DNA of 64,000 nucleotides from contig QCMW01000001.1 in NCBI GenBank assembly GCA_003213495.1, forward strand, positions 62,001 through 126,000. Reading direction: 5' to 3'. The notes below the pieces were generated by a model. It did not search any database. It worked only from the letters and a program-made list of their open reading frames with translations, and was not told the origin of the DNA. Every line of letters begins with the position of its first letter. Position 1 is the first letter of the stretch. A program made the position numbers and the translations under genes. Below, one piece after another: positions 59,964 through 63,918 of this stretch. This DNA comes from SAR86 cluster bacterium AG-422-O05 (GTDB lineage: Bacteria > Pseudomonadota > Gammaproteobacteria > Magnimaribacterales > D2472).

Positions 59964-61052
59964 ATGGGATTTAAGTGTGGAATTATAGGATTACCAAATG
60001 TTGGTAAATCTACACTTTTTAATGCTCTTACAAAATCTGAAATACCAGCAGAAAATTTTCCGTTTTGCACCATAGACCCTAATGTTGGAAAAGTGCCCTT
60101 GCCTGATAATCGATTAATAGAATTAAATAAAATTGTTAACTCACAAAGAATTATCCCTGCTGCTTTGGACCTTGTAGATATTGCAGGATTAGTTAAAGGA
60201 GCTTCGGATGGCGAAGGCCTTGGAAATGCATTCTTATCGAACATAAGAGAAATGACTGCTTTAGCACATGTTGTTCGATGTTTTGAAGATCAGAATATTA
60301 CTCATGTTGACGGATCGGTTAATCCAAAAAGAGATGTTGAAGTTATAAATCTGGAATTAATCCTCTCAGATCTTGAAACAGTTACAAAAAAAATTGCTAA
60401 GTGTGAAAAACTTATTAAAACAAATGATAAAAATAATGAAATACAATTAGAAATACTCTTGCTTATACAAAAAGATTTAGAAAATGGTCAATTAATAAAT
60501 CTTAAAAATTTTACAGAGGATGAACAAAAGATAATCAAAAGTTTTCAACTTTTATCATCGAAGCCTATGTTTTTTATAGGAAACATAAATGACAGCGAAC
60601 AATCTCAAAAATATATTGAACAATTAAACTTAGTAGCAAAAGAACTTAATACATTCGTAATTCCTGTATCAATAAAAATTGAACATGAGATTTCTACGCT
60701 TGAGGAAGAAGAAAAAAAAGAATACCTTGAAGTGATGGGCTTGGATGAACCTATCTTAAATAAAATCATCCTTGAGGGTTATAAGATGCTGGGTCTAAAG
60801 ACTTTCTTCACGGCTGGGCCTAATGAAATAAGAGCATGGACAATAAAAGATGGATTTACAGCTCCAAATGCCGCAGGTGTAATCCATACTGACTTTGAAA
60901 GAGGTTTTATAAAAGCTGAAGTAATAGACTTCAAAGACTATATAGCAAATGGAGGAGAATTGGGGGCCAAAGAAAACGGCAAATTAAGACTTGAGGGAAA
61001 AGAATATATTGTTCAAGATGGGGATGTAATTCATTTTAAATTTAATGTTTAA
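59964..61052 (+). CDS. ychF: ribosome-associated ATPase YchF
   Basis: YchF (OLA1 family) is an Obg-related P-loop protein that binds ATP, touches ribosomes and affects oxidative stress in E. coli. The 362 residues show the P-loop GLPNVGKSTLFN, the DIAGLVKGASDGEGLGN switch II stretch, FIGNIND at the position of the NxxE specificity motif, and a C-terminal TGS domain (KTFFTAGPNEIRAWTIKDG, in part; GDVIHFKFNV at the end). It closes the prs-rplY-pth-ychF block, 5 bases after pth. Confidence 0.97.
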   Translation: MGFKCGIIGLPNVGKSTLFNALTKSEIPAENFPFCTIDPNVGKVPLPDNRLIELNKIVNSQRIIPAALDLVDIAGLVKGASDGEGLGNAFLSNIREMTALAHVVRCFEDQNITHVDGSVNPKRDVEVINLELILSDLETVTKKIAKCEKLIKTNDKNNEIQLEILLLIQKDLENGQLINLKNFTEDEQKIIKSFQLLSSKPMFFIGNINDSEQSQKYIEQLNLVAKELNTFVIPVSIKIEHEISTLEEEEKKEYLEVMGLDEPILNKIILEGYKMLGLKTFFTAGPNEIRAWTIKDGFTAPNAAGVIHTDFERGFIKAEVIDFKDYIANGGELGAKENGKLRLEGKEYIVQDGDVIHFKFNV

Positions 61053-61095: not shown

Positions 61096-61172
61096 GGCTA
61101 TGTAGCTCAGATGGTTAGAGCACAGCACTCATAACGCTGGGGTCGGTGGTTCAATTCCACCCATAGCCACCA
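61096..61172 (+). tRNA. tRNA-Met, elongator type (anticodon CAT)
   Basis: A 77-base cloverleaf with acceptor GGCTATG/CATAGCC, D stem GCTC/GAGC, anticodon stem CAGCA/CGCTG with loop CTCATAA, T stem GGTGG/CCACC, discriminator A and encoded CCA. It is close to E. coli elongator tRNA-Met, including G1-C72, and lacks the initiator's unpaired C1 and GGG/CCC anticodon stem. The last anticodon pair is an A31-C39 mismatch. tRNA-Ile2 (CAU) is less likely because of the E. coli metT match. Confidence 0.95.
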
Positions 61173-61179
61173 ATTTTGA

Positions 61180-61416
61180 TTAGTTCTTATTAATTAAAAA
61201 AATTATTATCAAAGAAACAAGTGCAACGATCCCATTGTCACCAATTGCATCAAGTACTGCAATTAAATTTGAATACACTATACCTACAAAAGGAGCATCT
61301 GGTCCAAAGACAATTCCAAGTAACAATGCAACTGCCACAACAAGTAACAAGACATCAGTGACTTGTTTTAAGTAGCTTTTAATTTTGTTTAAAGAATAAT
61401 AAAAATCTAGTTTCAT
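61180..61416 (-). CDS. small two-helix membrane protein, paralogue A
   Basis: The 78-residue protein begins with a basic amphipathic stretch (NKIKSYLKQVTD), then a hydrophobic segment to about residue 38 ending GIVFG (34-38), a short loop with Pro and Phe, and a second hydrophobic segment (about 44-75) containing AIGDNGIVALVS, ending NKN. It aligns with the next gene upstream (61469-61687): the GIVFG turn and the GD(N/A)G(I/L)V motif fall at matching places. No known family is recognised. There is no ribosome site before ATG 61416, and a 10-bp inverted repeat lies just upstream. It converges on tRNA-Met. Confidence 0.75.
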   Translation of the reverse strand: MKLDFYYSLNKIKSYLKQVTDVLLLVVAVALLLGIVFGPDAPFVGIVYSNLIAVLDAIGDNGIVALVSLIIIFLINKN

Positions 61417-61428
61417 AAATTTATGATA

Positions 61429-61456
61429 TCAAAGGGAGAAATTAATCTCCCTTTGA
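61429..61456 (-). terminator. perfect 10-bp inverted repeat between the two small genes
   Basis: TCAAAGGGAG and CTCCCTTTGA form a perfect 10-bp stem around an 8-base loop, 12 bases after the stop of the upstream small gene. No run of U follows on the minus strand, so it is not a standard intrinsic terminator. It may protect the 3' end of the first mRNA, weaken read-through into the second gene, or hide the second ribosome site. Confidence 0.5.
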
Positions 61457-61468
61457 AGAAGTAAATGA

Positions 61469-61687
61469 TTACTTAAGCAATCCTATTAAGATAGCTGCAA
61501 CAAGTAAACCAACGAGTCCTGCATCACCAAGTGAAGATACAACACCTAAAAGGTTTGTAAGAACATCGCCGAAGAACCATGTATCGCCAAAAACAATACC
61601 AGCTACAACACCTAATCCGATTACAGCAACAAGAATTTTAGTAAGACTTGTAACTATATCACCAATCATTTTCATTGCATTATCCAT
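61469..61687 (-). CDS. small two-helix membrane protein, paralogue B
   Basis: The 72-residue protein is very hydrophobic: a first segment of about 12-33 ending GIVFG (30-34), the aromatic loop DTWFFGD, and a second segment of about 42-71 with SSLGDAGLVGLL. It is a clear paralogue of the gene at 61180-61416. It has one of the strongest ribosome sites in the window, GGGGGGAG at 61693-61700, five bases before ATG 61687, which predicts high expression. It lies 125 bases after pnp. No family recognised; channel, scaffold or holin-like roles are all only possible. Confidence 0.82.
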   Translation of the reverse strand: MDNAMKMIGDIVTSLTKILVAVIGLGVVAGIVFGDTWFFGDVLTNLLGVVSSLGDAGLVGLLVAAILIGLLK

Positions 61688-61812
61688 AATAACTCCCCCC
61701 TATTAGGTTTATTTATGATTTGCAGGTTCCATGAGACCACAAAAACATTTTTGAATCAAATTCTGTTAGTCACAATATTTGACTTTTTAAATTTTATAGA
61801 ATAGTGGTGTTT

Positions 61813-63918
61813 CTAGTCTGAATCTGAGGCATTTTCTGCTAATGCCTTCATAGATAACTTCATCTTTCCTCTATCAAAACCAATAAGTTTAACTTCAACT
61901 TCTTGGCCTTCTTCAAGGACATCATTTACATCCTCAGTTCTCTCAGTTGAAATTTCAGAAATATGGACAAGACCATCTTTGCCAGGAAGAATATTTACAA
62001 AAGCTCCAAACTCAACAATTTTGACTACTTTACCTTTATATACTTTATTTAACTCTGGCTCTTCCAATATTTCTTCAATAATAGCAAGACACTCTTTCAT
62101 AGATGACTGATTTTGTCCAAAGACTGAAACAACTCCATCATCATTGATGTCAACTGTAGCACCAGTTTTCTCCTGCATCGATTTAATAACAGCTCCGCCC
62201 TTTCCAATGATTTCTTTTATTTTGTCTTTATCAACCATAAATGTTTTCATTGCAGGAGCATTTTCAGAAAGATCCTTCGGAGATGAAATTACTTCATTCA
62301 TAATTCCTAAAATATGAGTTCTAGCATTTTTTGCTTTAGCTAAAGCAGTTTCCATAATTGATTCATTTATACCACTAATTTTAATGTCCATTTGTAAAGC
62401 AGTTATACCTGACTCTGTTCCGGCTACTTTGAAATCCATATCGCCAAGATGATCTTCATCTCCTAAAATATCTGTAAGAACTGCAAAATCATCTCCTTCT
62501 TTAATTAATCCCATTGCAATTCCTGCAACTGGACTCGATATTGGAACACCAGCATCCATTAATGATAAAGATGTGCCGCATACTGACGCCATTGAACTAG
62601 ATCCATTTGATTCTGTTATTTCTGAAACTACACGCATTGTGTAGCCAAAATCATCAATATCAGGCATTACAGCTTTAATAGCTCTTTTTGCAAGATTGCC
62701 ATGACCAATTTCTCTTCTTTTTGGACCCATAGGCATTCCAATCTCACCTACACTGTATGCTGGAAAATTGTAGTGCAGCATAAAATTATCCGAACCTTCA
62801 CCCTCAATAGATTCTATTCTCTGTGCATCTCTTGATGATCCCAGGGTAGCAACAACAATTGCCTGCGTTTCACCTCTAGTAAATAGTGCAGAACCATGAG
62901 CAGAAGGTAAAATATTTGTTTCTACATAAATAGGTCTTACGGTATCTAAATCCCTACCATCAATCCTTGGTAGATTATTTAAAATATTTGACCGCACAAT
63001 ATCTTTTTCAAGTTTTTTGAATGCTGACAGTACTTTACCAACCTCAATCTCATCTGATTCTTGATATTCTTCAAGAATTGAATTTTTAATTTCGCCAAGT
63101 TTGTAATTTCTTTCAGCTTTTATTGAAATTTTAAATGCATCTGTAATTTCAGCTTTATATTTATTTTCTAGTTCAAAGTAATAACTACTTTCCTCTAAGT
63201 CAGTTTCAATATCCCACTCATCATTGCCACATAGAGCTCTTAACTGATTGCAAGCATTAATTACTGCTTTCATCTCTTGATGGCCAAATAAAACCGCTCC
63301 CAACATTAAATCTTCATTTAATTCTTTTGCTTCTGATTCAACCATTAAAACGGCTTCATCTGTACCTGCTACAACCATATCTAAATATGAATCTTCTAAT
63401 TGCTCAAAAGTTGGATTAAGAACATATTCACCATCTATAAACCCAACTCTAGCTGCACCCATAGGTCCATCAAAGGGAACGCCAGAAATAGTTAATGCGG
63501 CCGAGGCGCCAATCATTGCAGCAATATCTGGATTTTGCTTTTTATCAGATGACATTACAGTACAGAAAATCTGAATTTCATTTGTAAAATGTTCAGGAAA
63601 CATTGGTCTTATAGGTCTATCAATTAACCTTGAAGTTAGCGTTTCTCTTTCAGTGGGTCTAGCTTCTCTTTTAAAAAATCCGCCAGGTATTCTTCCGGTC
63701 GAATAAAATTTTTCCTGATAAAAAACAGCAAGAGGAAAAAAGTCTTTTGCAGGATCGGCTTCCTTTTTGGCAACTACTGTTGTCAATACAACCAAGTCAC
63801 CGATAGTGACTACTACTGCAGCTGTAGCTTGACGAGCTATCTTATTTGTTTCTATTTTTACTTGTTGATTTCCGTACTCAAACTCTACGAATGTAGATTC
63901 TAAATTTTTATTTTCCAC
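61813..63918 (-). CDS. pnp: polyribonucleotide nucleotidyltransferase
   Basis: PNPase degrades RNA 3' to 5' with phosphate and is part of the degradosome. The 701 residues contain two RNase PH domains ([22 protein letters not shown], in part; [15 protein letters not shown] in the second, with [23 protein letters not shown], in part, at the active site), a KH domain ([20 protein letters not shown]) and an S1 domain ([23 protein letters not shown], in part). The start is GTG 63918 with AGGA about six bases upstream. It follows rpsO, the standard rpsO-pnp pair. Enolase, the other degradosome partner, is at 2154. Confidence 0.98.

Follow-up and report, generated by a model that had tools for sequence, protein, structure and literature searches.

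Two small paralogous membrane proteins, encoded side by side in the SAR86 order and hereafter called B and A, look like a real, so far unexplained membrane component, since their pair is old and kept by nearly all SAR86, and since B has relatives in many ocean viruses. Our preferred explanation, which is tentative, is that B and A may together form a hetero-oligomeric assembly of the inner membrane, in which B would be abundant and A scarce, with a loop facing the periplasm. The pair was studied in a window of 64,000 nucleotides (i.e., the whole stretch of DNA that was analysed) from a genome of 1.28 Mb (G000), and the features of the locus are given in Table 1. The hairpin between the two genes, the joint presence or absence of the two members and the viral relatives are additions to the sequence-only reading that first pointed to this pair.

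Table 1. Features of the B-A locus and its surroundings, in positions of the window.
Feature	Position	Strand	Remarks
ychF	59964-61052		named by eye; converges with the B-A pair
tRNA-Met	61096-61172		converges with the B-A pair
gene A	61180-61416	-	ORF call; A type; 78-aa paralogue, 3' of B
hairpin in the B-A gap	61429-61456	-	11 pairs; arms 61446-61456 and 61429-61439, loop 61440-61445
gene B	61469-61687	-	ORF call; B type; 72-aa small membrane protein
ribosome-binding site of B, GGGGGGAG	61693-61700	-	strong (computed energy); 5 nt before the ATG
15-nt stretch GTCAAATATTGTGAC	61769-61783	-	about 80 nt 5' of B; found in similar form in most of the 11 relatives that were aligned
pnp	61813-63918		named by eye; B and A follow on the minus strand

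Both open reading frames were recovered where they had first been drawn, on the minus strand, with 78 (A) and 72 (B) codons, and the paralogy of their products is above chance: BLASTP aligns 59 residues at 36% identity (E 5e-10), while a profile-profile comparison of A and B gives a probability of 98.9 (E 3.7e-17). The GIVFG and GDxG(I/L)V motifs, on which the likeness had been recognised, are present in both proteins and largely retained among relatives, and the description of A and B as small membrane proteins of the two-helix type is supported. Retention of the pair in relatives goes along with purifying selection on both genes, the median dN/dS being 0.31 over 232 pairs of B genes and 0.46 over 204 pairs of A genes, in pairs that are near synonymous saturation.

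Across the window's own genome and 59 relatives, at least one match to B was found in 50 of the 60 genomes, and two or more in 49. With a profile of both types, 37 of the 40 SAR86-order genomes that are at least 90% complete have both members, side by side and on the same strand, three (G037, G803 and G052) have neither, and none has a single member. SAR86 genomes are small, and a lack of conservation in close relatives, which would have told against the sequence-only reading, was not encountered. In all 49 loci with both genes, B lies ahead of A on one strand. The vicinity of pnp, which had been noted from the sequence and is not supported as meaningful, is lineage-dependent: pnp lies ahead of the pair in families f1 and f2, was not found in the stretches read of the f3 and f4 loci (six f3 stretches being only 2-3 kb long), and is no fixed neighbour. 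Because order and strand are fixed while this neighbourhood changes, the pair seems to move as a unit. A third match in genome G048 (L051) was dropped, as it looks by eye like what we take to be SecE. We also rejected a joint loss of the pair with rhodopsin, which is present in 35 of the 40 SAR86-order genomes: two of the three pair-less genomes keep it, G052 alone also being without rhodopsin.

In a scan of named genomes, the best 80 of 102 relatives come mostly from SAR86, and also from SAR92/Porticoccaceae, a group with one Woeseia-titled member and other marine gammaproteobacteria. Two class samples contained a family match in 5 of 274 genomes (two from the SAR86 order) and 9 of 369 genomes (three from that order), the window's own genome being counted among them. 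Two phylum samples held nothing credible besides the window's genome, with weak matches in 3 of 299 and 5 of 398 genomes, of which one and two, respectively, belong to the same class; one weak match, L165, is overlapped by genes that by eye are presumably a VapB/VapC pair. From these sequences, the A type is seen in SAR86 and SAR92 (which has both types, in L112, L115 and L090), while the B type extends to other marine gammaproteobacteria and to viral contigs from the sea. The SAR92 pair is followed by a conserved protein of 105 aa and membrane type (L112, 8819-9136; L090, 8821-9138), which has no match to the family profiles.

In a phylogenetic tree with 65 rows, 20 rows of the A type stand on one side of a branch with a support of 99/100, opposite to all B and viral rows; this tree, whose bootstrap is not fully settled, leaves out three divergent A-like rows (CCA_L113, G284A_L135 and G276A_L133), and the A group was broken up in an earlier tree that included them. 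All trees rest on about 75 columns and many of their inner forks are unsettled, the position of the second pairs of G397 and G160/G276 being uncertain. Both tandem members of G397 lie on the B side. In genome G284, an A-like domain is fused to a long lysine/threonine repeat tail (L135, 1150-1701, minus strand). Given the split between A and B types and the occurrence of both in SAR92, the duplication would predate the separation of SAR86 and SAR92, unless the pair was transferred, and is best regarded as ancient. Of the tandem duplication proposed earlier, the adjacency of the paralogues on one strand stands, whereas a local and recent event is not supported.

B-type genes without a neighbouring A occur in other hosts (L101, L107, L108 and L156), and a single family member of the B type was found per fetched stretch in 80 of 80 viral loci (the best 80 of 94 relatives). 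Combined with the somewhat faster evolution of A (see the dN/dS values above, near saturation), these cases speak for two independent paralogues, which would share locus and ancestry while having separate membrane jobs and forming no complex. We nevertheless consider this unlikely, as the two genes are never split in the 40 near-complete SAR86-order genomes and keep their order and strand at every one of the 49 loci despite a changing neighbourhood.

The two genes also differ in their ribosome-binding sites. That of B pairs with the 16S tail at a computed -11.0 kcal/mol, and a 16S end with CACCTCC is present in this genome. The site had been called exceptional, and rightly so: this energy is reached by none of the 58 ORFs in the window that are 100 aa or longer (best -8.8, median -1.65), a comparison in which start codons were set by a crude rule. 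A had been described as having no site, but its site, at -1.9, is weak in an ordinary way, with sites as weak or weaker in 32 of the 58 ORFs. Over 49 loci, the medians are -11.0 for B and -0.9 for A, and the site of B beats that of A in 44 of them. The 15-nt stretch upstream of B was tried as the mark of a regulon and rejected, with one exact site in the whole genome.

Between the two genes, all 49 SAR86 gaps (35-79 nt) fold at -16.5 to -24.4 kcal/mol. For the 47 unique gaps, 142 of 9400 shuffles are as low as the real energy (median z -4.7), the hairpins of L029, L031 and L032 being no better than shuffles; among the nine gaps of 30-110 nt that the window has between co-directional genes, an energy of -15 or below is found for this one and for one other, which holds a tRNA-Gln. 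The stem sequences are lineage-specific. In a comparison by script of the stems of 44 of the 47 unique gaps (L029, L031 and L032 left out), 26 distinct arm pairs were counted, and each of nine positions is occupied by two to six types of pair. Arms from different stems pair at 53% of positions, to be read against an own-arm pairing that is 100% by construction of the stem finder. A MAFFT alignment of the stems shifts arms between rows, and no pair counts were therefore drawn from it. At least five T in the next eight bases follow 17 of the 44 SAR86 stems; the stem of the window has three, and a terminator scan with a U-run rule found none at its B-A gap. As the stems end 5-28 nt before the start codon of A (44 stems), there is little room for a separate promoter. 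A 9-of-12 promoter match at 61432-61404 (minus strand) was discarded because its second hexamer is inside gene A, so that full-length A is not obtainable from this site.

Hairpins 3' of B extend beyond SAR86, in a comparison that leaves out the gap energies of L090, L123, L125, L127 and L128. They occur in SAR92 (z -2.2 in L112 and -1.8 in L115), reach z -2.9 to -3.5 in L113, L114 and L119, and are weak in the gap of G397 (L158; -9.2, z -1.7). Behind the four solitary B genes listed above, all four hairpins have a U-run and 0-2 of 200 shuffles are as low; in these 4 of 4 loci tested, they look like plain terminators. A hairpin also follows viral B in 10 of 11 loci outside the group with nrdA/nrdB described below (0-11 of 200 shuffles as low), the exception being L193 (130 of 200), and neither of the two loci examined from the nrd group shows it (31 and 130 of 200).

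The simplest reading is that the hairpin would be the old terminator of B, often weakened, with A living on read-through. Since the hairpin behind a solitary B looks like a plain terminator, A is probably transcribed by read-through and B made in excess. Because the stem of the window has no U-run and only the 17 stems mentioned above are T-rich, a role in processing or in simple mRNA protection, instead of partial termination, is possible.

As for the proteins themselves, AlphaFold2 models based on the family alignment, which are monomers of moderate confidence, place helices at residues 2-33, 37-55 and 58-71 in B (pLDDT 77.7, pTM 0.45; 69.9 to 54.2 for the other four models) and at 2-37 and 44-77 in A (pLDDT 85.3, pTM 0.52). 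The charges of the A type (+2.5 over residues 1-20, -3.0 for the central part and +1.7 over the final eight residues) would suit an N-in/C-in topology; the signal appears weaker in the B type (-0.3, -2.8 and +1.0, respectively), the N-terminus of which is not positive.

In searches of family libraries with A and B of the window, nothing came below E 0.17. Scans of 26 members of one alignment against Pfam, NCBIfam, PHROGs and PADLOC returned scattered single-member matches, the best with E 0.0038 (Pfam), 0.013 (PHROGs) and 0.027 (NCBIfam); for PADLOC, five families were reported (best E 0.01), each in at most 2 of the 26 members, and Pfam gave no defence or immunity family. A sequence profile search of the PDB had no match, while Foldseek yielded 0 and 4 matches against the PDB, none below E 6, and three against viral models, none below E 6.9; the two-helix models carry little fold signal in such comparisons. 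The known family that the sequence-only reading had considered as the outcome against it was thus not encountered, Pfam, NCBIfam, PHROGs, PADLOC and the PDB being without significant and consistent match, and no paper on the pair or its family was found in a collection of open-licence papers.

A candidate A-like protein was observed in the Woeseia-titled group, where a protein of 209-226 aa is encoded behind one of the B-type genes (7 loci). The A profile matches both ends, in order, in 5 of 5 such proteins (E 6.5e-4 to 0.41, for a nominal database of 1000), and the ends are separated by an extra stretch of about 120-140 residues that is coiled-coil-like by eye. Two B-type profiles match 0 and 1 of the five (E 6.3), four of them are found with a mixed profile (E 0.026 to 1.3), and hhalign links the A profile to the second end only (probability 59%, E 9e-5). 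This is suggestive of an A-like protein with a coil inserted in its loop. If so, the coil would sit in the loop between the two helices, which the charges of A would place in the periplasm.

Turning to viruses, a first scan found four contigs with a family member, whereas the B of the window has 94 relatives and a viral member used as query 100 relatives in viral contigs, 80 of each set being kept and the two sets overlapping. B-type relatives thus appear in roughly a hundred viral contigs, which come from a viral collection and on several of which phage genes were confirmed. In the largest group, nrdA, nrdB or both accompany B (65 of 88 viral loci, two contigs having been entered twice); in L241, nrdA, nrdB and an IscA-like gene are confirmed by Pfam and an RNase H is recognised by eye. 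A permuted tmRNA (Rfam RF04321) lies directly 3' of viral B, between nrdA/nrdB (L195, L214, L241; L271, 2255-2478; others), in 3 of 3 such loci in one scan and 17 of 20 in another; permuted tmRNAs of marine T4-like phages are already described in the relevant passages of PMC9004378. Among the cultured phages of INPHARED, three tblastn queries had no match with the low-complexity filter on, and the first 50 kb (about one third) of Melnitz and HTVC008M contained no credible match, the best hit (E 9e-4, for a small set) lying in HTVC008M in an antisense frame.

A second viral group comprises 11 contigs (L138, L139, L140, L141, L150, L152, L187, L190, L193, L224 and L225). A TorF-like porin gene is located 63-78 nt 3' of B in L138, L141 and L150, directly 3' of B in L193 (recognised by eye only), and about 1.1-2.6 kb from B on the other strand in L140, L224 and L225; it was not seen in four of the 11 contigs. 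The Pfam family Gcw_chp is confirmed in L138 and L140 and not in L141, L193 and L225; the calls in L141 and L150 are based on their identity of 73-76% with L138, and the TorF-like proteins of L140 and L225 are 70% identical to each other. In five near-copies (L255, L256, L258, L259 and L260), an MscS-like domain lies 5' of B and a terminase 3', with AmtB found in three of them (L256, L259 and L260; by Pfam on L256 only). In L256 (2303-3870), and also in L259 and L260, AmtB is followed by a 131-aa MscS-like beta-domain protein, and the B-type gene and the terminase come directly after them.

These neighbours raise the idea of an uptake accessory, in which the B type would tune or stabilise envelope transport (TorF in the outer membrane, AmtB in the inner membrane) and phage B would keep nitrogen uptake running. 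It draws on the TorF-like genes directly 3' of B (L138, L141, L150 and, by eye, L193) or within 2.7 kb of it (L140, L224, L225), on AmtB and the MscS-like domain 5' of B, on the two tandem glutamine riboswitches carried by L138 (2216-2331), and on a SAR86 genome with an apparent torF-glnK-amtB row (L171, 1453-3290), in which torF is supported by Pfam while glnK and amtB, named by eye, are presumed. However, the SAR86 B-A pair is not located at that row, the largest viral group adjoins nrdA/nrdB instead, and the AmtB contigs, being near-copies of each other, count as few independent cases. Moreover, no rule of joint loss with TorF holds, since the pair-less G037, G803 and G052 keep TorF, whereas the TorF-less G808, G809, G810 and G811 keep the pair. 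All in all, such a role seems improbable. In genus g8, three torF copies lie about 10 kb from the B-A pair.

The many viral copies also bring to mind a holin/antiholin-like or superinfection-exclusion-like system taken from phages, B making lesions or blocking phage entry and A moderating it, and the size of the proteins and the topology predicted for them would be in keeping with class II holins, for which PMC9636201 gives two helices with N-in and C-in ends. Yet the scans gave no significant holin or immunity match (single members at best, E 0.048 for NCBIfam holin_phiLC3 and 0.094 for a PHROG holin) and no holin family in Pfam among the 26 members. In the viral loci read, the copies adjoin nrd, torF, amtB or ligase genes, no lysis gene being apparent by eye or in ten PHROG scans, and the host locus consists of pnp, a tRNA and ychF, with no lysis cassette. 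Finally, conservation in 37 of 40 hosts and a very strong ribosome site are unlike a lethal or patchy defence gene, which makes this explanation very doubtful.

We return to the hetero-oligomer with B in excess, which we favour because of the joint presence and absence of the two members, their fixed order, the hairpin, the unequal ribosome sites and the paralogy; the plain terminators behind solitary B genes, the charges of A and, suggestively, the protein with a coil that follows B in another lineage may be added. Each protein would fold as a hairpin of helices whose two ends most likely lie in the cytoplasm, a short loop reaching the periplasm. B would be the ancestral, self-sufficient subunit, made from its very strong ribosome site, and the hairpin at the end of its message would originally have been its terminator. 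A, having arisen by the old duplication, would sit behind this hairpin, be read mainly by read-through and join in smaller amounts as a minor subunit with a capping, regulating or anchoring role. In other settings, a B-type protein would function with no A next to it, and the B-type copy of marine phages would be an accessory gene acquired from hosts. At the inner membrane, our guess is that the assembly acts as a pore or scaffold or as an accessory to a transporter. Against this model stand the hairpin of the window without U-run and the minority of T-rich stems, the hairpins of L029, L031 and L032 and the weak one of L158, the N-terminal charge of B, the moderate confidence of the monomer models and the B-type genes without A in other hosts and viruses. 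The hetero-oligomer had already been proposed from the sequence and is plausible; a meaningful link with pnp, a recent duplication and an odd lack of a ribosome site in A are not supported.

SAR86 is abundant in the surface ocean, and a pair and hairpin kept while the stem sequence changed, along with about a hundred viral contigs, point to an unnamed membrane function used by both ocean cells and viruses. At its broadest, and with little confidence on our part, an undescribed inner-membrane family found both in oligotrophic marine Gammaproteobacteria and in common marine phages, T4-like and other, might form an oligomeric envelope module, with B exceeding A by means of an internal terminator and, in one lineage, a coiled-coil A reaching through the periplasm. 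Phages would carry B together with TorF or AmtB, so that this module would serve nutrient uptake or envelope energy and be taken over by phages during infection.

Several known systems invite comparison. Subunit c of the F-type ATP synthase (proteolipid) is a two-helix hairpin of 70-80 residues, a likeness to which the presumably high abundance of B may be added; it differs in that its Pfam family is absent among the 10 families reported for the 26 members and that the alignments of A and B show no charged position kept inside helix 2. Superinfection immunity proteins of the T4 Imm type are likewise small, phage-encoded and located in the inner membrane, but no such family is among the Pfam, NCBIfam, PHROGs and PADLOC matches. 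Class II holins and pinholins (S21 68 of phage phi21) are alike in their length of about 70 residues and their occurrence in phages, and A and B would also resemble them in the predicted two helices and N-in/C-in topology (for holins, PMC9636201), while A and B differ as a conserved chromosomal pair with a strong ribosome site and no significant family match, the viral B copies not being seen beside lysis genes in the loci read. Finally, ratio-setting operons are a counterpart at the level of RNA: in the parts of the two reports that concern us, low-U internal terminators (PMC9045158) and processing stem-loops (PMC4423207) set the ratios of subunits, of transporters in the former case. Here, the genes encode paralogous small membrane proteins and the B-A ratio is deduced from sequence; the likeness lies in the stem-loop between a strong upstream gene and its downstream partner, and in the low U content of many B-A stems.
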